Of a DNA stretch of 27,346 bases, positions 2,201 through 14,249 are shown piece after piece. Under the pieces are notes generated by a model, which was not told where the DNA came from, did not search any database, and saw only the letters and a list, made by a program, of their open reading frames with translations. Position 1 is the first letter of the stretch. Every line of letters begins with the position of its first letter. The position numbers were made by a program, and so were the translations under genes. This DNA is from a virus. The DNA lies in the IMG/VR virus record IMGVR_UViG_3300036045_000054, positions 1-27,346 of that record; one strand, written 5' to 3'.

Positions 2201-2622
2201 CAGACGAGCAGCTTTTCTGAGTTTCCCTCCGCCACCTCACTCGGGATGGAGATAGAGGCACACTTCATCAGTATCTCCATCGCCAGGGGAAGGTATGCCG
2301 GATATTCGATCAGGCTCTGGATGGTGACCTTCCCGTCAGCATCTTCCAGATTGTTGAGCTCCACATACTTGGGGAGAATGTCCTTGCACTGGACCACCAC
2401 TCGCATCATTTCGCTGGTCGTGATCTGGCTGTCAGACTTCAAGCCGCCGAGGCTATCCATCAGGCTGAGCAGGTCATCAATCTTGAGTGGCTGGAGAAGC
2501 ACCCAAACCTGATCAGCTTCTGGAAGCTTGGAATTGCCGTTCCAATCAGGTGTGAACCTGATCTTGCGCGAAAACGTGTGACGCATCTTGTGCCCAATCC
2601 TTCTGCGTTGCTGTCTATTCAT
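2200..2622 (-). CDS. Tail assembly chaperone G
   Basis: This is a 140-residue protein directly after the tail tube gene, starting in a TAATG overlap with that gene's stop. An upstream in-frame extension to 2760 would run back into the tail tube gene and is rejected. A basic start (NRQQRRRIGHKMRH) is followed by a helical, Leu- and Ile-rich body. Lambda gpG has a similar size and the same place in the gene order. The last codons contain a slippery heptamer in the correct zero-frame phase (G GGA AAC). No Shine-Dalgarno site lies close to the ATG, so reinitiation after the tail tube stop is likely. Similarity alone would be weak; synteny plus the frameshift signal make the call. Confidence 0.8.
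   Translation of the reverse strand: MNRQQRRRIGHKMRHTFSRKIRFTPDWNGNSKLPEADQVWVLLQPLKIDDLLSLMDSLGGLKSDSQITTSEMMRVVVQCKDILPKYVELNNLEDADGKVTIQSLIEYPAYLPLAMEILMKCASISIPSEVAEGNSEKLLV
2221..2227 (-). promoter_or_regulatory. Programmed -1 ribosomal frameshift site (GGGAAAC)
   Basis: On the coding strand the heptamer reads G GGA AAC in the frame of chaperone G, the X XXY YYZ pattern needed for tandem slippage. The -1 frame after it is open to 1958 and contains the ATG at 2200. The shifted product continues with codons for LRKAARL and then the T frame. No stimulatory RNA structure was identified. Confidence 0.8.
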
Positions 2623-3731
2623 TACGGATAGGTGCCATATCCCTCCCGCCAGGTGTTGCGCAGGCGAGCCTGGAAGTTGTAGAGGCTGGCAACGTTGAAT
2701 TCGCCCTTGCCCGTGAACTGAACCGTCAAACGGTTCGGCCCTTGGATTGGCGCATTCCACTTGGTGAACTTGAACTCCGGCACATCAATTGCCAGCTGGA
2801 AGTAGTGGGCGCTGGAAGGATTGCCGATGATCATGTCGCTCGCCACGTGCGTGAGCGTGGCGCGGAAGAACCTGTTGTTGTAATCGCGGAACAGCAGATA
2901 CTCGTCAAAGTTGCGGAACGTCATCGTGCCGTTCAACGAGACGCGCTGGAAGCCGTTCGTCTGGAATTCACCATACTTCTTGGTGCCATCCAGAAGAACA
3001 ACACCCTCGATTGGCGTCTCATACTTGACCGTCAACTGCTCAAACTTGTCGAACGAAGCCAGGCTGTTCACACCCGGTCCCATCTGGATGCTGGCCATGT
3101 CCCAGACCCAAGGCTTGCCGCCCGGATTGCGTAGGGCAGAAACACTGCTGATCCGCTCGAACATGGCCACATCGCGTGCCATGACCGACACAGTGGACTT
3201 GGCAAGCTGGCCAGCTTGGATGTTGAACTCAATGCCGGTGAACACCGTGCCATTGTAGATCATCATGCTGCCGACATCGCGATAAATCAGCAGCGAGTAT
3301 GGCGGCAGATACGTCCGCTCATCGTATGCGGTCTGCTTCGGCGAAAAGATGTGGTCGTAAACGCCACGAGCCAATGAGCCATAGCCAGTTGGCAGGTTGA
3401 AGGAGTTGCCGCTGTTGGCACCCCATGAACCGGGGTCGGTCAGGACTGAGCTGTTGCACTGTCCAAACACGCCATACAGGAAGTGCCCAAGGGCATTCGG
3501 GTTCGGCTCAAGCTGGATTTCACCAGCCCCGCTGTCCAAGCCCTTGTAGCTTGGCGGTGCCGCCTTGTAGCCAGTGATGGCGCCTTCCTCAAGCTCACCA
3601 AGGGTGTGCTCGACCGCCTCACTGACGAAATTCGTCCACCTTGCGTTGCCAGCTATCTGGCTGCTGCTTGGGGAGGTGAACAAGCTCCCAACAGCCATAA
3701 GGGCAATCTGGCCACCGCTACCTGCCGGCAT
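2622..3731 (-). CDS. Major tail tube protein
   Basis: This 369-residue protein should form the hexameric rings of the tail tube. Signs of the family are the early segment with EPNPNALGHFLYGVFG, many alternating beta strands, and the C-terminal part with FKFTKWNAP and LTVQFTGKGEF. The size fits siphophage tube proteins with an added domain. The ATG at 3731 has a GGAGG site 5 nt upstream. The gene lies between the tail terminator (11 nt gap) and chaperone G (TAATG overlap), the expected place. A minor structural role is less likely given this order. Confidence 0.85.
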   Translation of the reverse strand: MPAGSGGQIALMAVGSLFTSPSSSQIAGNARWTNFVSEAVEHTLGELEEGAITGYKAAPPSYKGLDSGAGEIQLEPNPNALGHFLYGVFGQCNSSVLTDPGSWGANSGNSFNLPTGYGSLARGVYDHIFSPKQTAYDERTYLPPYSLLIYRDVGSMMIYNGTVFTGIEFNIQAGQLAKSTVSVMARDVAMFERISSVSALRNPGGKPWVWDMASIQMGPGVNSLASFDKFEQLTVKYETPIEGVVLLDGTKKYGEFQTNGFQRVSLNGTMTFRNFDEYLLFRDYNNRFFRATLTHVASDMIIGNPSSAHYFQLAIDVPEFKFTKWNAPIQGPNRLTVQFTGKGEFNVASLYNFQARLRNTWREGYGTYP

Positions 3732-3742
3732 TCAAGCCTCCA

Positions 3743-4183
3743 TCATGTGACATATGCGTCCACCATCACAGTGAACGTAGCAAGCGCAACGTGCCCTTTA
3801 CCCTCAGAAACTGCGGCAGCGCCAAATGACGTGTTCCCCTGAACCGAGGATGTCAAAATGCCTGCCGTGAACATCCGATTGGCTCTGCAAACTTCCTTTG
3901 CCCTCTTGAGCACAACGTCACGAAGTCTAGCCGCTTCCTTGAAAGTTTCAAAGCTGAAAGAGACAACATCCACAAAAATAATCAGCCTTTCCAGGGTCCC
4001 ATCAGGGATGTTCGTCAATTCTTCCGAGCTTTCATTGAGCCGGACATTCAGGAGCGGCATGTGCGCAATGTTGCCAGTCTCCCGCTCCATACCCTCTACC
4101 CAAACGGATGCCGCCTCAGTGACGTTGGCGCGAAGAAGGGTTGCCAGGTCATCCTGTATCTGCGCATAGTCTAGGGACGCCAT
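3743..4183 (-). CDS. Tail terminator / tail completion protein
   Basis: A 146-residue protein between the gpG-like gene and the tail tube gene. Tail terminators of the gpU type cap the finished tube and join it to the head; their usual size is 130-160 residues. The start MASLDYAQIQDDLATLLRAN and the later alternating beta/helix pattern (LERLIIFVDVVSFSF, then a helix with EAARLRDVVLKRAKEV) fit that fold. The ATG has an AGGA site 5 nt upstream and overlaps the preceding gene by 13 nt. The call depends largely on position. Confidence 0.7.
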   Translation of the reverse strand: MASLDYAQIQDDLATLLRANVTEAASVWVEGMERETGNIAHMPLLNVRLNESSEELTNIPDGTLERLIIFVDVVSFSFETFKEAARLRDVVLKRAKEVCRANRMFTAGILTSSVQGNTSFGAAAVSEGKGHVALATFTVMVDAYVT

Positions 4184-4686
4184 GTCTTCCTGACCCCTTC
4201 CTTAATCCAATTATTCACCATATGCGAAACAACAGTGGCAACTTCCTTCTGAGTCGGCCAAATCTCGCGGGCAGGCACTCTTGTTGCTCTGGCGTTGTGG
4301 AAAAAGATTGCTCCCCCTCTTGCCAGAGGCACTGCCATCAGCACATTCTTTCTGGCAGGTATCTTGTAGCCTGTGTGGTGCGCATTGATTGACCAGTTGG
4401 TCTGATCGCCACGATAGAACACAGTTGCCGTAGTCTTATCTGCCGAGTATGATATGCGCCTTGGTATGGTGCTGAGCGGCTTACGTCTGCCAGTCCGCTG
4501 AGTTGTCCACCAAGAAAGAGGCGCATATGGGCGCTTCCGGCCACTGCTTGCAATAGTCTGACGGACATAGTCACGAAGCACACGACCAATGTTGTCCATC
4601 AACCGCGCATCGTCATAGATGTAGCGCGAGAGGCGACGAATTGCCCCTTGAATTGGCGCAAAGTCAACTGTGACGCTGCTAACCAT
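4171..4686 (-). CDS. Mu gpG-like phage virion morphogenesis / tail completion protein
   Basis: A 171-residue basic protein of the Phage_tail_S / HK97 gp10-like type, which acts at the head-tail joint. Family-like features are RKRPYAPLSWWTTQRTGRR at about residues 49-67, a central beta region with FYRGDQTNWSINAHHTGYK, and a late R-x-P-A-R motif (RVPAREIWPTQ) followed by a helix. The ATG at 4686 overlaps the upstream stop by 8 nt. A longer frame back to 4878 lies inside the upstream gene and is rejected. It sits between the gp36-like connector and the tail terminator, the usual order in Mu-type head-tail modules. Confidence 0.75.
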   Translation of the reverse strand: MVSSVTVDFAPIQGAIRRLSRYIYDDARLMDNIGRVLRDYVRQTIASSGRKRPYAPLSWWTTQRTGRRKPLSTIPRRISYSADKTTATVFYRGDQTNWSINAHHTGYKIPARKNVLMAVPLARGGAIFFHNARATRVPAREIWPTQKEVATVVSHMVNNWIKEGVRKTWRP

Positions 4687-5179
4687 TGCTGTCAGTATCA
4701 CCTGGCCAACGAGCGTCATAATCCGCTTCTTGGCGATCCGGGTCTGCCCGCTGATTGATGTCACGAAGCACAGGCGAGAAGATTGGATCATAGCCCCGGT
4801 TGGCGCTCCAAGCATAGTCGCTGCCATTGGCGCTGCTCGCCAGGGTTGCCGAAGCAATGACCATGTCGCCATCAGCAAGCATTTTCAGGATGGCGTCACA
4901 ACGTTCCTTGCGCTGCAGGATAAACTCTGGCACATCAGGAAGCTTCTCGGCAAGCATGTGGAAGATCGCCAAGTCTGCTGTAACCTGGGTGATCAGAGGG
5001 TTGACGACCGCAAGTGGCACAGCATATCGCCGCGCCAGCCAAGCGTCCACATAAGCCTCTGATTGCCAGATAAACACAGATGACACTTCAAGCGAGGTCA
5101 CAGTGTAACCGGCTGTCCCGACCATCGTGGTGATCGGGCGATACCGGACAAAGACATCGCTCAAAGAGGCATATGCCAT
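4679..5179 (-). CDS. gp36-like head-tail connector (DUF1320)
   Basis: A 166-residue protein resembling the Mu gp36 family (DUF1320), adaptor proteins that dock under the portal. The N-terminus MAYASLSDVFVRY, the segment AYVDAWLARRYAVPL (about residues 42-56) and the helical part with ADLAIFHMLAEKLPD are typical. The tail is polar and probably flexible. The ATG at 5179 follows the stop of the large transferase gene by 9 nt and has a GGTGGTA site upstream. Good confidence in the family. Confidence 0.8.
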   Translation of the reverse strand: MAYASLSDVFVRYRPITTMVGTAGYTVTSLEVSSVFIWQSEAYVDAWLARRYAVPLAVVNPLITQVTADLAIFHMLAEKLPDVPEFILQRKERCDAILKMLADGDMVIASATLASSANGSDYAWSANRGYDPIFSPVLRDINQRADPDRQEADYDARWPGDTDSNG

Positions 5180-5188
5180 GCTACCACC

Positions 5189-8080
5189 TCATTGCCAATA
5201 TCCTGACCGTTTCCGGTCATACTGCCCCTTGAGATGGGTGCGAATCACATTGAGCACCTCATCTTCATTGTCGAAGATGCCCTGGATCATGGTTGGCGCC
5301 TCTCCAACCTTCAACTGGAGTTGGACAGGCAACCCTCTGCCCATGAAAGCGAGAGCCTCACTGTAGTATTGGATGGCCTGCTCCCCGCCCATTCCAACCT
5401 TGTCCCAGGTTGACCAGTGCTCCTTGTAGAAAGCTACGCCATCCAGCGCAAGAAGTCTAGCTTGTTGAGGCTGGCCAGTGCTCGCCAAATAGCGCATGCG
5501 GTGGATGATGTCGCGGAGCCACAAGAATTTGCCAATGTTCCTGTCAGGATTGACCTCGCGATCCCACTCCAAGAACGGGAAGTTGCGCATGAAGCGATCC
5601 TTGCGCACATTCTCGTTCACATATCCCGAGTGTCCAATGTCCACATCAGGGAGGATGAAGCAGAAACCGGGGCCACCGTTGAAGCCCTTCTCGGCATGCT
5701 CGTGGACCTTCCCATAAAACTTGAAGCCACGATTTGTGCGATAGAGCCGAGCAGGCTTGTCCATCTGCGTGGGCGCCCCACGCGGATCGCAGGTGAAGTG
5801 GTGCTGGTGGATCGCGTAAGCGTCAAAGGCATTCCGCCTGAGAAACTTCCTGAAGCTTCCAGACAGCCATTCGTCCGCGTCAATCCAGAGCACCCAGTCA
5901 GAAGTTGCCCGCTCAACAGACATGTTCCGGGCATCATCGAAGCCCCAGACGCCGGGGCTGAGTATCTTCCCATCGCGCTTGCGGACAAACACCCAGGGGT
6001 GATTGGCCATGAACTTCCTCACCACCTGATCGCAGTGGTAATCGTCCCCGCTGATCACAAGCTCGACCACCTGGACTTCCTTGCCAATGCTGTTGAGCGT
6101 CTTGGAAAGGGTGTCAGCATTGTCCACAATGATGGCCGCGGTCACAGTCTCGCGGGAGCGATGCCTCATCGCCTTCTGGAGCGGATCAACAGGGTGCGGC
6201 GCCTTGTGATCTGCCTCATAGGAGAATGTGGTGTGCCCAATCGCCCGTCCATCAGGCGCGTGCCCATGAGGCAGCGACTGCATGCGGCAGTCCTTCTTGT
6301 CGGCAAACATCTGCCGAAGCATCCACTTGTTGATGTGCCAGATATGGGCGCGCCAGTTGAATTGCTCCTTGTCATAGAGGCCAAGCGCCTCCCAAGGACC
6401 CATCGGCACAGTGATGATGACGCGACCGCCAACAGCAATCTGCTTCTCAAGGAAGCCAATTACCTCCCACGGCTTCTCAACATGCTCCAGCACTTCCGAG
6501 CAGATCACTGCATCAGCATACTGAACGCTTGGCCAATTATCAGTTGAGCCGTGATAAAAGTCAACATTCTTCAGGTCCATCTCATCAGCATACTTCCGAC
6601 ACAGATGGATATTGCTATCGGCAAAATCAATGCCGATGAAATTCCGATCAGGGAAGCGTTCTGCCAGATCAAGGATGATCACGCCCTCTGCGCATCCATA
6701 ATCGAGAATTGTGGCGCCTGGCGGAGTCATTGAGACTTCCTGAGCAATCGCCTCGAAACGCGGGTTGCCAACCATTGAACGGCGCTGACGAGCACCCTTC
6801 TTATCTTCCCGCACAAAGTAATTCTCATAGTAGTTGGCAAACGTGCAGTCGCCATACAGGTATGGATAGAGCCGCCTCAGCTGGGTGGCCATCCACAGCT
6901 GGTAATCAGTCTTGCTCGTGGTCGAAGCGAGCAACTCAATTGCCGGGATGATATCGCTGTCTTCAACAAGCGACCAGATCAGACTGTCCGCAGTGACCGG
7001 GACCGGGGAAAGCATTTCCTCCACTTCCTGCGCAGCCTGCGCCCAATAGCGCGGCATCCAGCGCGCCTTGATGGCGTATTGCAGCCCCTCAGCCACTTCC
7101 ATGGTGCTTCGCACAAATTGTGCAAATTCTTCGCAAAATTCATCGCTTCCGTATTCCAATTCGCCAGAGTTGAAAAATGTGCCATACTCGCCAAGCGTTT
7201 CTGGCAGAGCACCCTTCTCGGTGGCCATGAAGACACACGCGCGCTCCATGCACTCTTGTGCCAGGATGCAGCTGGTCTCCTCAAATGCCGTCGGGTAGGC
7301 ATACCCACCACAATCGTCCATCAGCTGCCGAAGCTGAAGCTGCGTCAGGTTGCCCCAGACCTTGACGTTGGGCAAAGCATTTGCCCAGGCAAACAATTGC
7401 GCGTAGTAATCCTGCATGTGCTCTGGATAGTTTTCATACATGCTGATGTTCAGCTTGAATTCGGGCAGACGGCTCATGATGCCGCCAGGCCGCACAAGAG
7501 CCTCCAGGCCGCGCTCTGGACGAGCAGCATATATAAGCTGCTTGTTATCCTTCATGCCGAGAGGCATGATCTCTTGCGACGTGATCGCGTTGCGGAGCAC
7601 CTTGACGTATTCGCGCGGATACCCGGTCACCTTGGAATACTGGTCGGCGTGCCAGTGGGACACGCACCAAATCTCATCGAAGTTGAAGCCGACGCCTTGG
7701 ACGGCCTGAGATGGCCCGTAATACGTGGCCAGATCATGGCACCACAGAACCGCCTTGCGAGCCTGATGGTTGACCTGCAGCAGCTCAGGGCTGCGCTGGA
7801 CGATGAGCAGGTCCACCTCAGTTGTTGAGATGAACGGACCATACTGGTTGATGCTGACGTAGCGCACACCGTCAACGTCCAACCCTCCACCTTCGCCAAT
7901 GTAATCCGGCGAGCCTTTGTGCGGCAGAACACAGAACACGGTCACAAGGTGCCCGCGCTGCTGAAGTGCTTTTGCCAGGGAGAGAGCGGCTGTCTCACTG
8001 CCGCCAAGTGACTTGTGTTCCAGCGTGGTTGCCGCAAACGGCATACCAGGTGCCACGATCACAATTTCGCGAATGTCCAC
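5189..8080 (-). CDS. Three-domain fusion: GT4-like glycosyltransferase, SAM methyltransferase, GT2-like glycosyltransferase
   Basis: A 963-residue protein with three enzyme domains. Residues 1-350 look like a retaining GT-B glycosyltransferase (GT4): GGSE at 26-29 in the donor/acceptor loop, and an E-x7-E pair at E268 and E276 in FEETSCILAQE. Residues about 430-600 form a class I methyltransferase: ILDYGCAEG at 458-466, the motif II acid in IGIDF at 482-486, and VICSEVLEHV at 525-534. Residues about 645-880 form a GT-A glycosyltransferase: ETVTAAIIVDNADTLSKTL at the start and a DxD motif in WIDADEW (D734, D736). The GTG start at 8080 has GAGGG 7 nt upstream. The gene lies between major capsid protein and head-tail connector, so virion protein glycosylation is a reasonable inference. 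All three motif sets appear intact; the sugar and target are unknown. Confidence 0.85.
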   Translation of the reverse strand: MDIREIVIVAPGMPFAATTLEHKSLGGSETAALSLAKALQQRGHLVTVFCVLPHKGSPDYIGEGGGLDVDGVRYVSINQYGPFISTTEVDLLIVQRSPELLQVNHQARKAVLWCHDLATYYGPSQAVQGVGFNFDEIWCVSHWHADQYSKVTGYPREYVKVLRNAITSQEIMPLGMKDNKQLIYAARPERGLEALVRPGGIMSRLPEFKLNISMYENYPEHMQDYYAQLFAWANALPNVKVWGNLTQLQLRQLMDDCGGYAYPTAFEETSCILAQECMERACVFMATEKGALPETLGEYGTFFNSGELEYGSDEFCEEFAQFVRSTMEVAEGLQYAIKARWMPRYWAQAAQEVEEMLSPVPVTADSLIWSLVEDSDIIPAIELLASTTSKTDYQLWMATQLRRLYPYLYGDCTFANYYENYFVREDKKGARQRRSMVGNPRFEAIAQEVSMTPPGATILDYGCAEGVIILDLAERFPDRNFIGIDFADSNIHLCRKYADEMDLKNVDFYHGSTDNWPSVQYADAVICSEVLEHVEKPWEVIGFLEKQIAVGGRVIITVPMGPWEALGLYDKEQFNWRAHIWHINKWMLRQMFADKKDCRMQSLPHGHAPDGRAIGHTTFSYEADHKAPHPVDPLQKAMRHRSRETVTAAIIVDNADTLSKTLNSIGKEVQVVELVISGDDYHCDQVVRKFMANHPWVFVRKRDGKILSPGVWGFDDARNMSVERATSDWVLWIDADEWLSGSFRKFLRRNAFDAYAIHQHHFTCDPRGAPTQMDKPARLYRTNRGFKFYGKVHEHAEKGFNGGPGFCFILPDVDIGHSGYVNENVRKDRFMRNFPFLEWDREVNPDRNIGKFLWLRDIIHRMRYLASTGQPQQARLLALDGVAFYKEHWSTWDKVGMGGEQAIQYYSEALAFMGRGLPVQLQLKVGEAPTMIQGIFDNEDEVLNVIRTHLKGQYDRKRSGYWQ

Positions 8081-8175: not shown

Positions 8176-8207
8176 ACCTGACGCGAGTGTGCCCTCTCAC
8201 GTCAGGT
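8176..8207 (-). terminator. Stem-loop after the major capsid gene
   Basis: Arms at 8176-8187 and 8196-8207 pair over 12 positions with one mismatch around an 8-nt loop. On the minus strand the hairpin begins 8 nt after the capsid stop codon. No U-run follows, so it may be a transcript end, a processing site or a stabiliser that keeps capsid mRNA more abundant than the downstream genes. Type is uncertain. Confidence 0.5.
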
Positions 8208-8215
8208 CGTCACGA

Positions 8216-9178
8216 TCAGGTGGAAGTGACGATGATCCTCATCGCCAGGTCAGTGGAGACGACCTTCTCCCCCTGATAGTATCCAACCTGCATGTCGTAG
8301 CACTTCCGCTTCGGGTCAAACGGGAAGCGTTCAGCGGCCATCGGCACACCGAGTGCCGGGTTGGTCCAGCGGAAGGCGTTGATCCACGTGTCGGTCATCT
8401 GCCCCGCCAGCGTCTTGGTGTGGGCGAGCCAGATGTTGTCCGTGCCCCAGACATCGGTGAGGGTGAAGCTGCCGTTGACAGTTTCCTGTTCGGCAAAAGT
8501 ATTCGCCTGCACCTGCGGGATCAGCACATTCGGGATTTCCAGCAACCCAGCCAGCTGCTGGATCGAAGGCACCCCGCCACGGTCACCGAACAGCACCGAC
8601 ACCATCTGCGAGTTGACGTTGATGTGGCGCTTGATCGCTTCCGGCACGATCAGCGTGTTCGGAACCATCCCAGTTGCCCGCCTGAAATCTTCCTTGTAGC
8701 CGAGCATCTGGGTCCAGATCGGCGCCTGTGCCAGCGTCCATGCGCAGCCCACCTGCGTGACCGTCCGAACGTTGCTGGTGTTGACGGCCAGCGTTGCCAG
8801 ACGGAACTCATAGTCCATCATCAGACGGTCCATGAGGAACACGCCGTGGTTGTTCGCCCAGTTGAGGATGGCGTCAGCGTTGACCTCATCCTCCACCGAC
8901 CAGTCCGTGCCCAGAGCGTAGTTGGGCGCGAAGTAGGTGTCGCTGGCCACCGAGAAGTGGACCTTGCGCGGCTCGGTGCGCGGCGCACGAAGCGTCATGC
9001 CCGCCTCGAAACGTGCCCACTCCCCATATCGGAATTTGTAATACATGTCCGACTGCTTGGAGACGGGTGTCACCGGGATGAACTGGTCAGCGATGAAGCC
9101 CGAAGGGCGACGGTTGACCAGAATGTTGGACAGCGGCACGTCAACGTGGAGCGTGCGGCCAGTGGAAGGGACAGTCAT
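8216..9178 (-). CDS. Major capsid protein
   Basis: A 320-residue protein expected to form the HK97-fold shell. It lies after protease/scaffold and decoration genes and before the connectors. Family-like features are the N-terminal LSNILVNRRPSGFIADQFIP, the central TYFAPNYALGTDWSVEDE, a long helix with WANNHGVFLMDRLMMDYE, and NTLIVPEAIKRHI in the middle domain. The C-terminus holds an R- and F-rich strand region (FPFDPKRKCYDMQVGYYQGE). The ATG has AAGGAG 9 nt upstream, a strong site for a highly made protein. A hairpin follows the stop. Confidence 0.9.
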   Translation of the reverse strand: MTVPSTGRTLHVDVPLSNILVNRRPSGFIADQFIPVTPVSKQSDMYYKFRYGEWARFEAGMTLRAPRTEPRKVHFSVASDTYFAPNYALGTDWSVEDEVNADAILNWANNHGVFLMDRLMMDYEFRLATLAVNTSNVRTVTQVGCAWTLAQAPIWTQMLGYKEDFRRATGMVPNTLIVPEAIKRHINVNSQMVSVLFGDRGGVPSIQQLAGLLEIPNVLIPQVQANTFAEQETVNGSFTLTDVWGTDNIWLAHTKTLAGQMTDTWINAFRWTNPALGVPMAAERFPFDPKRKCYDMQVGYYQGEKVVSTDLAMRIIVTST

Positions 9179-9191
9179 GCTTGGTCGCTCC

Positions 9192-9617
9192 TTATACGCC
9201 GCCGATTATGCCGGCACTGTTCGGATAGATGATCTGGCGCCGGCTCATGTCCAGGGTGAACAGTGAACCACTCGCCGCCGAAGTGCGGGCAACCCCGAGC
9301 ATGGAAACCGGGCCGGTCATCCCGCTCGTGATCGTTGTTGCCCACCCCGGTCCCCCAGTTGCGCTGGTCGCCGTGGTGATCGGTGCGCCGATGGCGATGG
9401 CAGCGCCCGCACGGCATCGCACCTCTCCATTCACAACGACCGTTGCCGCCTCGTTGATGCGAGGCTCATTCTGCAGAACGCCGAAGCCACCCCGCCCCGC
9501 CGCAGGGTTGCAGGCATTCGGCTCACTCGTGGCCAATTCCACGATGCGATACTGCATCCCCTCCAAAGAGGCGAGTGCCTTGAGCGCGATAGACCGCTCA
9601 TTCAGGTTCCAGGCCAT
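9192..9617 (-). CDS. Capsid decoration protein (DUF2190-like)
   Basis: A 141-residue protein. The middle, with VVNGEVRCRAGAAIAIGAP, and the end, with SMLGVARTSAASGSLFTL, show the Ala/Gly-rich beta pattern of DUF2190 head decoration or stabilisation proteins. Such proteins bind the expanded capsid surface. It lies 13 nt before the major capsid start and 6 nt after the protease stop, where decoration genes commonly sit. GGGAG is present about 9 nt before the ATG. A head fibre role is possible. Confidence 0.65.
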   Translation of the reverse strand: MAWNLNERSIALKALASLEGMQYRIVELATSEPNACNPAAGRGGFGVLQNEPRINEAATVVVNGEVRCRAGAAIAIGAPITTATSATGGPGWATTITSGMTGPVSMLGVARTSAASGSLFTLDMSRRQIIYPNSAGIIGGV

Positions 9618-9623
9618 TGCCGA

Positions 9624-10175
9624 TCACTCCCCCTTGATGTAGCGGGATGCCAGATCAGCATCACCGTCAAGAACCTTCTTCATGGCTTCAGCATAGCCGA
9701 GCTTTCCGCCACTGGCCGAAATGGCCTCGTTCACCTTGGCGTCCACTTCGTGGCCTGCCGTGGCAAACTGCCTCACGTCGCGGCTGCCCTCCTTGCCGCT
9801 GCCACGTTCGGTGGTGTCCACCTGCTTCCCGGCCAGGCCGATGAAGTCAGCGAACAGCTGGGCTGGCGTCTTTTCGGCGCCGCCAAAGTTCACCGTTCCC
9901 TTCATGCCGGACATGAAGGCAAGGGCCAAATCCTTCTGCTTGGGCAGAAGCTTGCCATCCTTGATGGCCTGATCCACCAGGTTGACCGCCTCACGCTGCG
10001 CAAACTCTGCCGCCTGCGTGTTGAGCTTGCCTTCCGCCGCTTCCGCGCGGGCAGTCAGCGTCGTGACCTGAGCACCCAGGTCAGAAATCCTCGTGGCAAA
10101 TTCGGCCCTGATGGCCTCATTCGCCTTGTTGACCGCCGCTGCGATCAGCGTGTCAACTTGCTCCTGCGTGAACAT
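9624..10175 (-). CDS. Nested scaffold protein from internal start (predicted)
   Basis: Codon 175 of the protease gene is an ATG at 10175-10173, preceded by GGAG at 10184-10181 with a 5-nt spacer. It is placed exactly where the protease domain ends and the helical scaffold part begins. The product would be 183 residues (MFTQEQVDTLIAAAVNK onward). Separate scaffold products from the 3' part of a protease gene are known in Mu (I/Z) and lambda (C/Nu3). The ribosome site is visible; actual use is inferred. Confidence 0.6.
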   Translation of the reverse strand: MFTQEQVDTLIAAAVNKANEAIRAEFATRISDLGAQVTTLTARAEAAEGKLNTQAAEFAQREAVNLVDQAIKDGKLLPKQKDLALAFMSGMKGTVNFGGAEKTPAQLFADFIGLAGKQVDTTERGSGKEGSRDVRQFATAGHEVDAKVNEAISASGGKLGYAEAMKKVLDGDADLASRYIKGE

Positions 10176-10697
10176 TGCCACTCCGTTGGCTTGGTTGAAG
10201 ATGACCGGTTCCTGCTTGGTCTCGCTGCTGAACTGCTGCCCATACAGAGCCGCAGCAAGCCCTGCCAAATCCTTGACTGCGGGCATCTCAGTGCCAAGGA
10301 TCGCAACGGCAGAGAGAACGTGGCCAAACTTCTTGCCATCATGCTCAATCTGCCCTGGCGAGAACACCTCACTCGACACGTTATGATAACGTCCCTGCCT
10401 GAACAAGTCCAGGAGTGCCTCTGGGACGCTGTCGATGTCCGCAAAAAGTTTTGCCCCCTCCCTCCAAATCCTGCTGATCCAGCCAAGGGTTGGAATGCCA
10501 ACCTTCTGACCGAACCACTTCTGCGCATCCGTATGACCAAGCTTGAGATGCGGCTTGACAATGTTCGTGCCATTCAGCGCGTAGAAGTTTGCCACCATTT
10601 CATCCAGGTGGCCCTCAGTCACAGTCACCTTCTGACCACTGGCGGGCGTCCAAGTGCCCGCTCCAAATATCTCCAGACGCTGAATGGTCCCTGGCAT
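9624..10697 (-). CDS. Prohead protease with C-terminal scaffold domain (Mu gpI-like)
   Basis: A 357-residue protein of the Mu-like prohead protease type. The N-terminal half carries PHLKLGH at 49-55, a likely catalytic His region, YHNVSSEVF at 104-112, and HVLSAVAILGTEMPAV at 126-141. The C-terminal half (from about 175) is a helical, Ala/Glu/Gln-rich scaffold region, with TARAEAAEGKLNTQAAEFAQ as an example. The protease should cut scaffold and capsid precursors during maturation. The ATG at 10697 has no clear Shine-Dalgarno sequence. The portal gene ends 45 nt upstream, and no MuF-type minor head gene lies between them, unlike in Mu. Confidence 0.8.
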   Translation of the reverse strand: MPGTIQRLEIFGAGTWTPASGQKVTVTEGHLDEMVANFYALNGTNIVKPHLKLGHTDAQKWFGQKVGIPTLGWISRIWREGAKLFADIDSVPEALLDLFRQGRYHNVSSEVFSPGQIEHDGKKFGHVLSAVAILGTEMPAVKDLAGLAAALYGQQFSSETKQEPVIFNQANGVAMFTQEQVDTLIAAAVNKANEAIRAEFATRISDLGAQVTTLTARAEAAEGKLNTQAAEFAQREAVNLVDQAIKDGKLLPKQKDLALAFMSGMKGTVNFGGAEKTPAQLFADFIGLAGKQVDTTERGSGKEGSRDVRQFATAGHEVDAKVNEAISASGGKLGYAEAMKKVLDGDADLASRYIKGE

Positions 10698-10742: not shown

Positions 10743-12164
10743 TCAGGTCATTTTCGTAGTTTTTGCTTTGGCTGGTCCCTTAGTTGCCCGGTTGTTGTTC
10801 TTACCCGCTCCAAGCCCCATTTCATTGGCTATTCCTGCGCCTGGGCCAGTGCCAAGTGGGGTCGGTTGTGGACGATTAACCTCATCCTCGTCACCTTCGT
10901 CACGCATTGGCGCACCGAGGATGGAGCGCATATAGTTGACGTCATTCTGGTCAGCATCAAGGATGCCAGCGTTGAACATGTTGATCATGCTGTCGGCAAT
11001 CTCAATTGCCTCGTATTCACCATAGTCACGGAACACGAACCGGGGGAAGTCCGTCACATTCGGGAAGTTCATGTCCACAAGCGGCTTGACCACCTTGGCG
11101 TTGAAAATGTGTTCCAGATCATTGCAGATGTCACCAGCAACCTTCATAAGCACTCGCAAATGAAGCCTGCTCTGGCTGTCACTGCCACGCTTCACGTCCA
11201 CGCCCATGCCCAGCAGCGCCGGCAGGAGCAGCGCCCGAGAAATGCCCACATCGCAATAGGTGAGCGCATCCCCATATTGCGCCGTTCCCGCGCGCGTAGC
11301 TTCTATGAGATCAACCTCCACCCCTTCCGGCACAAGGATGTCACTGCGCGTGGACAGTGTGCGGAGGATGTCTTGGAGTGAGTCCTTCAGCGTCTGACTG
11401 GCGCCAATCGGATACTTCATCATCATGAGTGGCGAGCCGAAACGCTCCAGAAACACGTTCCAAAACTGGGTGATGAACTTCTTGCTCCACCAAGCCCTGT
11501 AGGCGGCACGAAGATCAGGAATGCCATAGTGGTTCCCGAACAGGCCACCATACTGGAAGTGCATCACCTTCTCTGGCGGCAGCTCAATCTCGTGTGGCGC
11601 GAAGCCACTGATCTGCCGGAACCCAATGATGTTGCTGTGGCGATCCACATCAATGCGAATGAACTCTGGATCGCGATGCTTCACATCCTTGAGCACGACC
11701 TTGAGGCCATACTCCTTGAACTCTTGCGCTTCCCAAATAAGCTCACCGGCGCTGAAACCATAGTCAAGCGCGCTGAGCATTTCGCGCATGATGCGGTTCC
11801 AGCTAATCTCATGGAGTGCGTCTTGCACAAATTGCGCCTGCTTCTTCTGCTCTTCACTCGCATCCTTGTCTCCTGCCGGAGTGATCTCCCAGGCACGACC
11901 ATGAACGAGCAACTTCTTGAAGGCCAAGCAGGCTTTGACGGTATCATCCGCCACCATTTCGCGATAGATGCGATAACCGGAGCGCGCGAGCAGATCATCT
12001 GGACTGACCAGCTCAAACCGGTCACCCTTGCGCACCATGGTGAACGGGCCAGGCCAGCTGGTGAGCTGGCCCATAGTCGCCACAGTGAGCTCTTGCTCAA
12101 TAGCCCGTGGACGGCCAACTATGGCCCGATATGCCTCAGCGATGCGCTCACGGATCGTGCTCAT
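10743..12164 (-). CDS. Portal protein (DUF935, Mu gp29-like)
   Basis: A 473-residue protein that should form the dodecameric DNA portal at one capsid vertex and dock the terminase. DUF935 features include DDTVKACLAFKKLLVHGRAW, ISWNRIMREMLSALDYGFSA, the EKVMHFQYGG segment, ERFGSPLMMMKYPIG, and LLPALLGMGVDVKRGSDSQS in the second half. The C-terminal 60 residues are Gly/Pro/Asn/Lys-rich and probably disordered. The ATG overlaps the large terminase stop (ATGA). Length fits the family (about 450-550). Confidence 0.88.
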   Translation of the reverse strand: MSTIRERIAEAYRAIVGRPRAIEQELTVATMGQLTSWPGPFTMVRKGDRFELVSPDDLLARSGYRIYREMVADDTVKACLAFKKLLVHGRAWEITPAGDKDASEEQKKQAQFVQDALHEISWNRIMREMLSALDYGFSAGELIWEAQEFKEYGLKVVLKDVKHRDPEFIRIDVDRHSNIIGFRQISGFAPHEIELPPEKVMHFQYGGLFGNHYGIPDLRAAYRAWWSKKFITQFWNVFLERFGSPLMMMKYPIGASQTLKDSLQDILRTLSTRSDILVPEGVEVDLIEATRAGTAQYGDALTYCDVGISRALLLPALLGMGVDVKRGSDSQSRLHLRVLMKVAGDICNDLEHIFNAKVVKPLVDMNFPNVTDFPRFVFRDYGEYEAIEIADSMINMFNAGILDADQNDVNYMRSILGAPMRDEGDEDEVNRPQPTPLGTGPGAGIANEMGLGAGKNNNRATKGPAKAKTTKMT

Positions 12165-13735
12165 GCGAAATCCCTGAAATCCTGCTCAGCAGTAGGCCGC
12201 AGGCGACCATAGCTGATCGCATTGGTAACGTCAAGTGATTCAAGAGCAAGGGCATTTGGGATGGAATAATATGGCGCAAGCCCCATCACCAGATTATCTG
12301 CCCGGTCAGGGCTGGCGTCTTCACCCAGCCTCTCGCGCATCTTGCGCTTACTCTCCACAAGTATCTTCTCACGCTCGTTGTATTCATACCGCACGCTGGA
12401 CAACTGGTTGATGAGCGTCTCATCCTCCACAATATGGGTTCTGCCCCTCTCCAGAATGCGCCGCAGATACCACCAGTCACGACTGCGCCGCGTGGCAAAC
12501 ATTCTGATGTCTTCCTCTGGGTCGCCATTCTCGGCACTAACGCTGCCGCCGCCATTGTATGGTCTGACCGCCAGATTAGCTCGCCGCGCCTGGTCCACCA
12601 CGCCGCCGCCCACACCCGGCTCGTCGATGATCACCCGGCCAAGTATCAGCCCGTCAGATTGAATTGACCGGGCGTATTCCAGGAGAATGTCCACGCACTC
12701 GTTTGTGCTGGTGCGCGGCCACGCCTTCAGCGCCAGCTGGTGCCCGCGACGATAGATGCCCAGGGTGGTCTCGTCACCACCAAATCGCGCAACGTCCATG
12801 CACAGGTGGACGGTATCAGCCACAGGATCGAAGTGCGGCAGCGGCACATACTGCGCGCGCTCTGCCCACACAATCGGAATCACCACCCGGTCATCGTTGG
12901 TCGGGAACAGCCCACGAACGCGCACATCATAGACGGGACTGTCCTTCCCATACTTGCGCGCCATAGTCTGCCGATACGACTCACTCACACGGCGGCTGAC
13001 ATATATCTTGCCACCATTGCGGTCCTTCGGCAACTCCACGTCGCCGCTGATCGTGAACCGCGCATACAGCATCTTGTTGCTGTGGAAGCTGTTGTAAAAC
13101 TCGCCATTCGTCTGCGTGGGGTTGCCGGCCATCAGGAGCTTCGCCTCCTGGCCGTGCTCATCGGCATTCGTCAGAATGCCCTCGATCACCTCAAACACCG
13201 GCATCGCCACACCAGATGCCTCGTCACAGAGCACCAGAATGTTGTCTCCATGGAAGCCCTGCAGGTTCTCCTGCTTGTTGGACGTTCTCGAAACAGCAAA
13301 CCACGTCTTTGGCGCCTGCTTGTTCCGAATGTGCGTGTCTGATATGTCCCACAGCTGCAGCAACTCCTGCGGCATCATCTGATGCCACTTCGCCATCTCA
13401 GGCCACAGCACGTCCTTCAGCTGGGCTTGGGTCGGAGCAGTCGCCACCACGCGGCTATTCGCCCGCGTGTTCAAATACACCCACCCCGCCCACGCCTCCA
13501 CCGTGGTCTTACCAACGCCGTGGCCCGACTTCACACTCACACGGTTGAAGTTGCGAAACAGATCAGTCAGAATTTCCCCCTGATAGTCCTCAGGAGTCAC
13601 TCCAAACCAATCCTTCACAGCATCTACTGGGTTCTGGCCCCAGTGGGCGATTGCCTCAGCGAGCTTGTCAGCCTGCCGGTGGCTCACCTGGCTGATCGGT
13701 GCCGTCTGCACCACACGCTTCGGTCTGCCCGCCAT
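12161..13735 (-). CDS. terL: Terminase large subunit
   Basis: A 524-residue DNA packaging motor. Walker A is SGHGVGKTT at 70-78 and Walker B is ILVLCDE at 166-172. The coupling motif region AGNPTQTNGEFY lies at 203-214. The RNase H-like nuclease has its acidic residues at D314 (MDVARFGGDET), D371 (VIIDEPGVGGGVVDQ) and D480 (RADNLVMGLAPY). A TTG at 13753 would add six residues, but the ATG at 13735 has GGAAGAAG directly upstream and is preferred. It overlaps the small subunit by 68 nt and the portal by 4 nt. All catalytic elements appear intact. Confidence 0.93.
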   Translation of the reverse strand: MAGRPKRVVQTAPISQVSHRQADKLAEAIAHWGQNPVDAVKDWFGVTPEDYQGEILTDLFRNFNRVSVKSGHGVGKTTVEAWAGWVYLNTRANSRVVATAPTQAQLKDVLWPEMAKWHQMMPQELLQLWDISDTHIRNKQAPKTWFAVSRTSNKQENLQGFHGDNILVLCDEASGVAMPVFEVIEGILTNADEHGQEAKLLMAGNPTQTNGEFYNSFHSNKMLYARFTISGDVELPKDRNGGKIYVSRRVSESYRQTMARKYGKDSPVYDVRVRGLFPTNDDRVVIPIVWAERAQYVPLPHFDPVADTVHLCMDVARFGGDETTLGIYRRGHQLALKAWPRTSTNECVDILLEYARSIQSDGLILGRVIIDEPGVGGGVVDQARRANLAVRPYNGGGSVSAENGDPEEDIRMFATRRSRDWWYLRRILERGRTHIVEDETLINQLSSVRYEYNEREKILVESKRKMRERLGEDASPDRADNLVMGLAPYYSIPNALALESLDVTNAISYGRLRPTAEQDFRDFA

Positions 13736-14249
13736 CTTCTTCCACCACCTCAATTACCGTTGATGCCCGCCGCTTGCTCGCGGCCATATTCACCACCTGC
13801 GCGAAACTAGGCTGTCCAGGCCGCGCCGGGTCAAATGCTCCCCGGTCATCCTCTTCACCGCTGCCCTCATCCACCACGTGCTTAGTGATAGACAGCGTCG
13901 GCATGATCTTCGCCGCCAGATACTTCGCCACAGCGATCCGCTCCTTCAGCGGCGTGGCCTGATAGATCGTCTCCACCTCACCTTCTTCATTGACGAACGA
14001 CACAGGTATGAGCGCACCCGTCTGCACAGCAATCAAAAATCCAAACGGGTCTGCCTGCTCCTGGATGCGCACAATATTCTGCCTCACCGTCACCACTGGT
14101 CCGCGCGCTATCTTCACCACTTCCTTGCCACTTTTGGAGTGGTTCACAACAAGGGGTTGACCGGGGCCTCCCCCGTTCTCGCGCAGAATGTCTTCCAGCT
14201 TGCGCTTGATCGCAAACGTCGCAATGTCAGCTTTCTTGGGGCGTGCCAT
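13668..14249 (-). CDS. Putative terminase small subunit
   Basis: A 193-residue protein directly upstream of terL. The N-terminus MARPKKADIATFAIKRKLED is basic and helical, as in DNA-binding parts. The segment PLKERIAVAKYLAAKIMPTL (about residues 100-119) resembles a pattern seen in small-terminase-like phage proteins. The C-terminus is acidic and Gly/Pro-rich. Its last 68 nt lie inside the terL reading region in another frame. The call is mostly positional; it might instead be an accessory packaging protein. Confidence 0.6.
   Translation of the reverse strand: MARPKKADIATFAIKRKLEDILRENGGGPGQPLVVNHSKSGKEVVKIARGPVVTVRQNIVRIQEQADPFGFLIAVQTGALIPVSFVNEEGEVETIYQATPLKERIAVAKYLAAKIMPTLSITKHVVDEGSGEEDDRGAFDPARPGQPSFAQVVNMAASKRRASTVIEVVEEDGGQTEACGADGTDQPGEPPAG

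Follow-up and report, generated by a model that had tools for sequence, protein, structure and literature searches.

A glycosyltransferase–methyltransferase fusion gene beside the capsid gene of an uncultured phage lineage and its probable role in virion glycosylation

A three-module enzyme gene among the head and tail genes

IMG/VR record IMGVR_UViG_3300036045_000054, a 27,346-bp fragment from an uncultured virus and the whole stretch of DNA analysed here (the window), encodes on its minus strand, at 5189..8080, a protein of 963 amino acids (aa) in which a GT4 glycosyltransferase, a methyltransferase (MT) and a GT2 glycosyltransferase are fused. The reading frame runs from a GTG start at 8080 to a TGA stop at 5189-5191 and has no internal stops. 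The initial annotation of this DNA had described such an intact chain, with an E-x7-E pair, methyltransferase motifs and a DxD motif, lying between the capsid gene and the head–tail connectors; chain, motifs and position were all recovered, and the strand, absent from that annotation, can now be added. All evidence is computational: domains were assigned with Pfam, PHROGs and PDB profile matches, models were built with AlphaFold2 and structures were compared with VIA-align.

With 49 family members as input, AlphaFold2 returned a confident model of the protein as a single packed chain of three domains (predicted local distance difference test, pLDDT, 92.3; predicted template modelling score, pTM, 0.91). 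Pfam recognises Glyco_transf_4 at residues 26-167 (E 4.7e-7), Methyltransf_31 at 455-560 (E 9.8e-17) and Glycos_transf_2 at 655-752 (E 1.3e-5), and no membrane segment was found in the fusion protein. Conservation was counted in an alignment of 55 fusion proteins with pairwise identities of 25-55%.

The GT4 module (residues 1-362; 6995..8080, minus strand; PF13439) is of the retaining type with a GT-B fold, and its model aligns in VIA-align with Z scores of 25-30 to sucrose-phosphate synthase, MshA, HepE and PglA, the last a protein-glycan enzyme; GT4 members are among these solved GT-B structures. Its E268-x7-E276 motif (7253..7279, minus strand) is nearly invariant in the family alignment (E276 in 55/55, E268 in 54/55), and R187-P-E-R and H115-D116 show no exception. 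Residues 1-362, which carry both a predicted fold spanning the whole module and E-x7-E, two marks of GT4 membership, are modelled as a complete GT-B enzyme.

The middle module (residues ~426-640; 6161..6805, minus strand) is a class I methyltransferase dependent on S-adenosylmethionine (SAM). It scores 61.4 bits against PF13847 for a cut-off of 27 (E 9.8e-17), a family matched by 10 of the 10 members scanned, and the family profile matches PDB 3mgg at E 2e-20. Motif I reads DYGCAEG at residues 460-466 (6683..6703, minus strand), with G462 in 50 of the 55 proteins (Ala in the other five) and G466 in 52, and a GIDF motif follows at residues 483-486. The profile matches many generic methyltransferases, a D-glucose O-methyltransferase among them (3e-10), so that homology does not settle what the module acts on.

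The GT2 module (residues 641-845; 5546..6160, minus strand) has a GT-A fold and resembles SunS, ThuS and GmaR by sequence and structure matches. Its DxDE motif for metal and nucleotide sugar, D734-A-D736-E737 (5870..5881, minus strand), is invariant in 55/55 proteins, and so are H793, E794 and H795 of the GKVHEH motif at residues 790-795 (5696..5713, minus strand), which aligns with FHGKVHEEP of SunS. A helical C-terminal module with a small beta/alpha end completes the protein (residues 846-963; 5192..5545, minus strand). Modelled without the rest of the chain (pLDDT 91.6), GT2 and C-terminus together find their best solved structures in SunS (Z 21.2 over 265 residues, root-mean-square deviation 3.4) and ThuS (Z 20.3); no further group exceeds 15.3, and the SunS/ThuS alignment reaches model residues 1-314. 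At the sequence level, the top PDB matches of the GT2 family profile are GmaR (E 5e-28) and SunS (E 7e-25); GmaR was absent among the structural matches listed, and the evidence for it is the sequence match. The SunS model TIGR04195 was matched by all 10 fusion members scanned, and the GT-A/GT2 fold with DxD and a helical C-terminal domain that characterises this family is present in the fusion; the window protein, however, scores 36.4 bits against an equivalog cut-off of 350 bits, which makes it a distant relative of SunS and not a member of its family. Linkage to a glycocin precursor and a SunT transporter is a further mark of that family; the genes recognised around the fusion belong to head and tail. 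The peptide residue glycosylated is Cys for SunS and either Cys or Ser for ThuS (PMC6405829), while GmaR places N-acetylglucosamine on flagellin (PMC9638930). Judged by sequence and model, the GT2 module appears closest to enzymes with polypeptide acceptors, the most telling functional clue that the protein offers. Across the three modules, catalytic residues are 91-100% conserved although pairwise identity between the 55 members drops to 25%, and this near-invariance indicates selection on function.

Along the minus strand, the genes of the window read terminase large subunit (12161..13753; phrog_2, E 9e-35), portal (10743..12164; phrog_113, E 2e-78), Mu gpI-like head maturation protease/scaffold (9624..10697; phrog_976, E 3e-38; PF10123), a cement-like protein, the major capsid protein directly upstream of the fusion (8216..9178; phrog_1005, E 5e-36), the fusion itself, a Gp36-type head–tail adaptor directly downstream (4679..5179; PF07030, E 1e-11; phrog_195) and a tail completion or neck protein (4171..4878; phrog_26, E 2e-10 from residue 63). 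The cement-like gene (9192..9617, minus strand) probably encodes a decoration protein; it matches PF09956 Phage_cement_2 below the cut-off (E 7e-4) and phrog_673, named 'head scaffolding', at E 6e-10. The neck-protein open reading frame (ORF), as listed, overlaps the adaptor, its true start lying further inside. Beyond it come a small unidentified protein, the tail tube protein (2622..3731, minus strand; PF18906, E 9e-11), two small proteins and a tape-measure-like protein. Between the fusion stop and the adaptor start lie 9 nt. On the other side, an inverted repeat on the minus strand, CCTGACG...CGTCAGG (8177-8206), follows the capsid stop inside the 135-nt gap before the fusion, where it could limit read-through out of that gene; a promoter and terminator scan gave nothing exceeding shuffled expectation.

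Distribution and inheritance with the capsid gene

A protein-based search recovered nine independent IMG/VR records with the full fusion at 31-55% identity, and all eight that are long enough to include the capsid gene have the fusion immediately downstream. Relatives were also selected by their capsid proteins: a search with the single window sequence gave one relative and an alignment-based search 279, of which 80 were kept and their loci read. Among these, 43 loci, some of them near-duplicates, include 5 kb or more of sequence on the downstream side of the capsid gene, and since they were chosen by capsid and not by fusion they provide a separate view of its frequency. The fusion modules are encoded downstream of the capsid gene in 43/43 and within one ORF in 41/43 (40 plain, plus L084, where an intein interrupts it). 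In the two near-identical loci L054 and L055 the modules are divided between a GT4 ORF and an MT-GT4-GT2 ORF; an account of these loci as losses of the fusion was rejected because the modules are found farther downstream as two ORFs. This rearranged version, at G022:11538-15621 (L111-L113), consists of a separate GT4 gene and a 1080-aa open frame of MT-GT4-GT2 order, and additional methyltransferase genes lie closer to the capsid gene (L054). In total, 48 distinct full-length fusions were counted at 95% identity (window included, L059 excluded). The recurrence of the fusion in the protein-found records and in every capsid-selected locus with enough sequence speaks against chance: the gene belongs to the near-fixed core of a large lineage of uncultured phages. 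The survey of homologues that the initial annotation had called for places them beside the capsid gene, and it found none in a host polysaccharide cluster, within the limited sensitivity of the scan of bacterial genomes.

Fusion and capsid proteins have also diverged together. Their pairwise identities correlate with r 0.915 (Mantel p 5e-4), and with r 0.84 and 0.89 within two subclades, while the three fusion modules correlate mutually with r 0.82-0.90. This co-divergence implies that the fusion has long been inherited together with the capsid gene. At its other end, the fusion stop lies no more than 5 nt from the adaptor start, or overlaps it, in 22 of the 28 loci with a same-strand adaptor match downstream; a TAATG-like 1-nt overlap occurs in 11 of these junctions and ATGA/GTGA in five, nearly all of the coupled junctions belonging to the subclade of the window. 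Junctions of this kind are typical of translational coupling. In three near-identical records (L082, L085, L086) fusion and capsid gene lie on opposite strands, and coupling to the structural operon is therefore not universal.

In cultured phages whose capsid proteins are distantly related (24-28% identity), the gene order is the same but the fusion is missing, and small connector or unknown genes follow the capsid gene; the fusion thus marks a subclade. No cultured phage with a full-length fusion was found by tblastn against phages, and matches in the plasmid and phage tblastn searches cover at most ~40% of the query. No bacterial genome matched the fusion in a limited scan with two short near-clade peptide patterns, which could miss diverged host fusions. 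The sole genome-contig match, L019, was discarded as a host homologue, as it shows a weak methyltransferase match alone at 24% identity.

The interval between capsid gene and fusion is itself variable. Stand-alone extra GT4 genes occupy it in L057, L065, L072, L087 and L090, and two extra methyltransferases in L058, as a slot for glycan-building genes would lead one to expect. Two related ORFs in the same interval (L068:7223-7882 and L092:6175-6849) carry motifs reminiscent of sulfotransferases, a reading that was abandoned for want of Pfam, PHROG or PDB support. Upstream of the fusion, L017:1979-4483 and L084:7288-10648 contain several virion-like ORFs of no recognised family, some of them Ser/Thr-rich, for which a role as head decorations and glycan acceptors is possible.

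Mobile elements have also settled at this gene. In one subclade a NUMOD4-HNH homing endonuclease lies immediately upstream of the fusion and ends at or next to its start; Pfam confirmed it in L063:3082-3612, and L064, L070, L075, L081, L088, L091, L098, L099, L102, L105 and L106 were judged alike by sequence. Inteins interrupt the GxVHEH motif of GT2 at the same point in L059:7469-11512 (LAGLIDADG, Pfam-confirmed) and L110:1492-5475 (HNH-like, read from the sequence). Inteins and homing nucleases tend to occupy conserved, needed genes, and their presence here fits an important gene without proving it. A second cargo slot lies between portal and protease, with radical SAM genes in L006:4368-5045 and L016:4693-5361 and an unidentified ORF in L015:4449-5363.

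A proposed role in virion glycosylation and its alternatives

The fusion is probably a soluble protein-glycosylation enzyme with three active sites, expressed with the head–tail genes and modifying a virion protein. Its position and the co-divergence point to the major capsid protein or to the small decoration protein as the most likely acceptor. As we infer it, from acceptor and sugars to order of steps and benefit, the SunS/ThuS/GmaR-like GT2 and the helical C-terminus would bind the polypeptide and place a first sugar on Ser, Thr or Cys from a host nucleotide sugar; the GT4 module would then add a second sugar onto the first, and the SAM-dependent methyltransferase would O-methylate the terminal sugar and so cap the chain. 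The phage might benefit through the masking of particles from binding molecules, through particle stability or through adhesion to the host. The initial annotation had proposed that the virion is glycosylated by its own phage. Each computational prediction of that proposal that was open to testing agreed with it: location, co-divergence, adaptor coupling in the subclade of the window, GT2 kinship, the lack of a membrane segment and, in 18 large relatives, of a detected GtrA; the virion acceptor, the methylated glycan and its synthesis by one polypeptide we infer, as it did. A more specific version is tentative and seems to us somewhat less probable than its negation: that the lineage depends on a single cytoplasmic 'glycan printer', a core gene coupled to the connector and co-evolving with its capsid substrate, which would set a SunS-like first sugar on capsid side chains (perhaps S-linked to Cys), extend it by GT4 and cap it with methyl.

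Several considerations weigh against a role in virion glycosylation. The lineage is known from uncultured sequence records alone, with no cultured member, and a gene that lies between structural genes may be cargo and serve another purpose. The fusion-free cultured relatives, with the same gene order, imply that glycosylation is not required for that capsid fold. Kinship with SunS equally fits a small-peptide acceptor, and the methyltransferase could have a target other than a sugar.

Other substrates must also be considered, the first being the host cell surface. Enzymes of the GT4 and GT2 families often take part in making envelope polysaccharides, and the GT4 module is structurally like lipopolysaccharide and glycolipid glycosyltransferases; the fusion might then serve superinfection exclusion by altering O-antigen, capsule or teichoic acid, its place among the head genes being incidental. 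We consider this unlikely, as the protein has no membrane segment, its GT2 is nearest to polypeptide glycosyltransferases, and a conserved capsid-adjacent site with coupling to the connector frame is unlike seroconversion cassettes. Moreover, the GtrA-type flippase PF04138 was detected in 0/18 large fusion-bearing relatives, the set used for all comparisons of genome content and one whose records may be incomplete, while 7/14 control genomes were positive; the failure to find a bacterial homologue points the same way within the limited sensitivity of that scan. The acceptor might instead be flagellin, pilin or another protein of the host, whose glycosylation would block other phages or alter motility, and the closeness of GT2 by sequence to GmaR, which glycosylates flagellin (PMC9638930), is in keeping with this. 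Yet the late structural location, the tight coupling to the adaptor and a co-divergence with the capsid that better fits a phage-encoded partner make such a role distinctly improbable.

It is harder still to credit that the fusion protein is itself carried in or on the particle and works during entry or at the host surface, without modifying the virion. A gene among virion genes and a soluble product of 963 aa, predicted to form a single rigid unit, would suit such a component, but three donor-dependent enzymes require cytoplasmic nucleotide sugars and SAM, and no virion-protein-like domain was recognised in the fusion. Glycosylation of modified bases in phage DNA, as protection from nucleases, is the reading to which we give least credence. 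Phage glycosyltransferases are known to act in this way in T4, and a thymidylate-synthase-family protein occurs in 3/18 of the large relatives, but no such base-modifying enzyme was found in the other 15/18 (the window, too, is a fragment), and GT2 resembles peptide and not DNA glycosyltransferases. The three proteins, in records G014, G015 and G016 (L061, L062, L066), are possibly base-modifying; two of them are partial matches within longer ORFs.

Known systems and significance

To our knowledge, glycosylation of the virion has been demonstrated in a few bacteriophages only. A phage-encoded glycosyltransferase with intact catalytic residues, one of the marks of phage virion-glycosylation enzymes, is present in the fusion. 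The closest architectural precedent comes from a eukaryotic algal virus: in chlorovirus PBCV-1, according to PMC7826918, citing Speciale et al. 2020, the three-domain protein A064R (GT-GT-MT) lengthens the capsid-protein glycan and O-methylates it. A064R, like A111/114R, shares with the fusion two glycosyltransferase modules and one methyltransferase in one virus-encoded chain. The comparison is one of architecture, and the differences are marked: A064R has 638 aa, the order GT-GT-MT and rhamnosyltransferases that extend an existing N-glycan, whereas the fusion has 963 aa, the order GT4-MT-GT2 and a last module like the polypeptide enzymes that add a first sugar. The suggestion of the initial annotation that a methylated glycan made by one polypeptide would be a notable system is tempered by this precedent.

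Among bacterial viruses, Che8 and other mycobacteriophages carry covalent glycans on their major capsid proteins that have been linked to phage glycosyltransferases (Freeman et al. 2023, as cited in PMC11256854 and PMC13313380), and in Rhodococcus phages a glycosyltransferase–methyltransferase pair has been read as a sign of virion glycosylation (PMC13313380). Unlike the fusion, the mycobacteriophage systems consist of separate genes, near the genome end in Maravista, in other hosts and phages, and no such fusion is reported there. A podovirus with an SU10 capsid, MW202524 (L107:3147-5432), and its IMG/VR relative L109:4950-7319, assigned by 67% identity and ORF reading, encode downstream of the capsid gene a GT2-tetratricopeptide repeat (TPR)-GT4 fusion and further glycosyltransferase and methyltransferase genes. 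They match the same PHROG families as the fusion, 13126 and 2170, but belong to an unrelated capsid lineage, have a separate methyltransferase gene and a reversed module order, and are known from genes alone; this SU10-type capsid-linked glycan operon is apparently independent of the fusion lineage and so lends the proposed role some separate support.

The polypeptide enzymes themselves differ from the fusion in context. SunS and ThuS, from the glycocin pathway and the SPbeta prophage, share with it the GT2 and helical C-terminus and the DxD, KVHE and H-GY motifs, but are stand-alone enzymes with small bacteriocin peptides as substrates and ~15-22% identity to the fusion module; in the fusion, GT2 is joined to GT4 and methyltransferase and located in a virion operon. 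GmaR, a bacterial enzyme of Listeria, resembles the fusion GT2 by sequence and acts on a large self-assembling protein, but it carries TPR and an antirepressor domain in place of GT4 and methyltransferase, and adds one sugar (PMC9638930).

No paper describing the fusion was found in the open-licence literature. Glycosylated phage virions and a capsid-glycan enzyme of the GT-GT-MT type were already known; the different module order, the SunS-like module and the standing of the gene as a near-fixed, capsid-linked element of a large uncultured lineage appear to be new. Phage capsid glycans can change the immune recognition of particles. If the proposed role is correct, virion glycosylation would be fixed throughout a broad environmental lineage, with one clonable gene by which to probe it, and a soluble enzyme able to assemble a protein glycan and cap it with methyl, all without lipid carriers, would be a useful tool.

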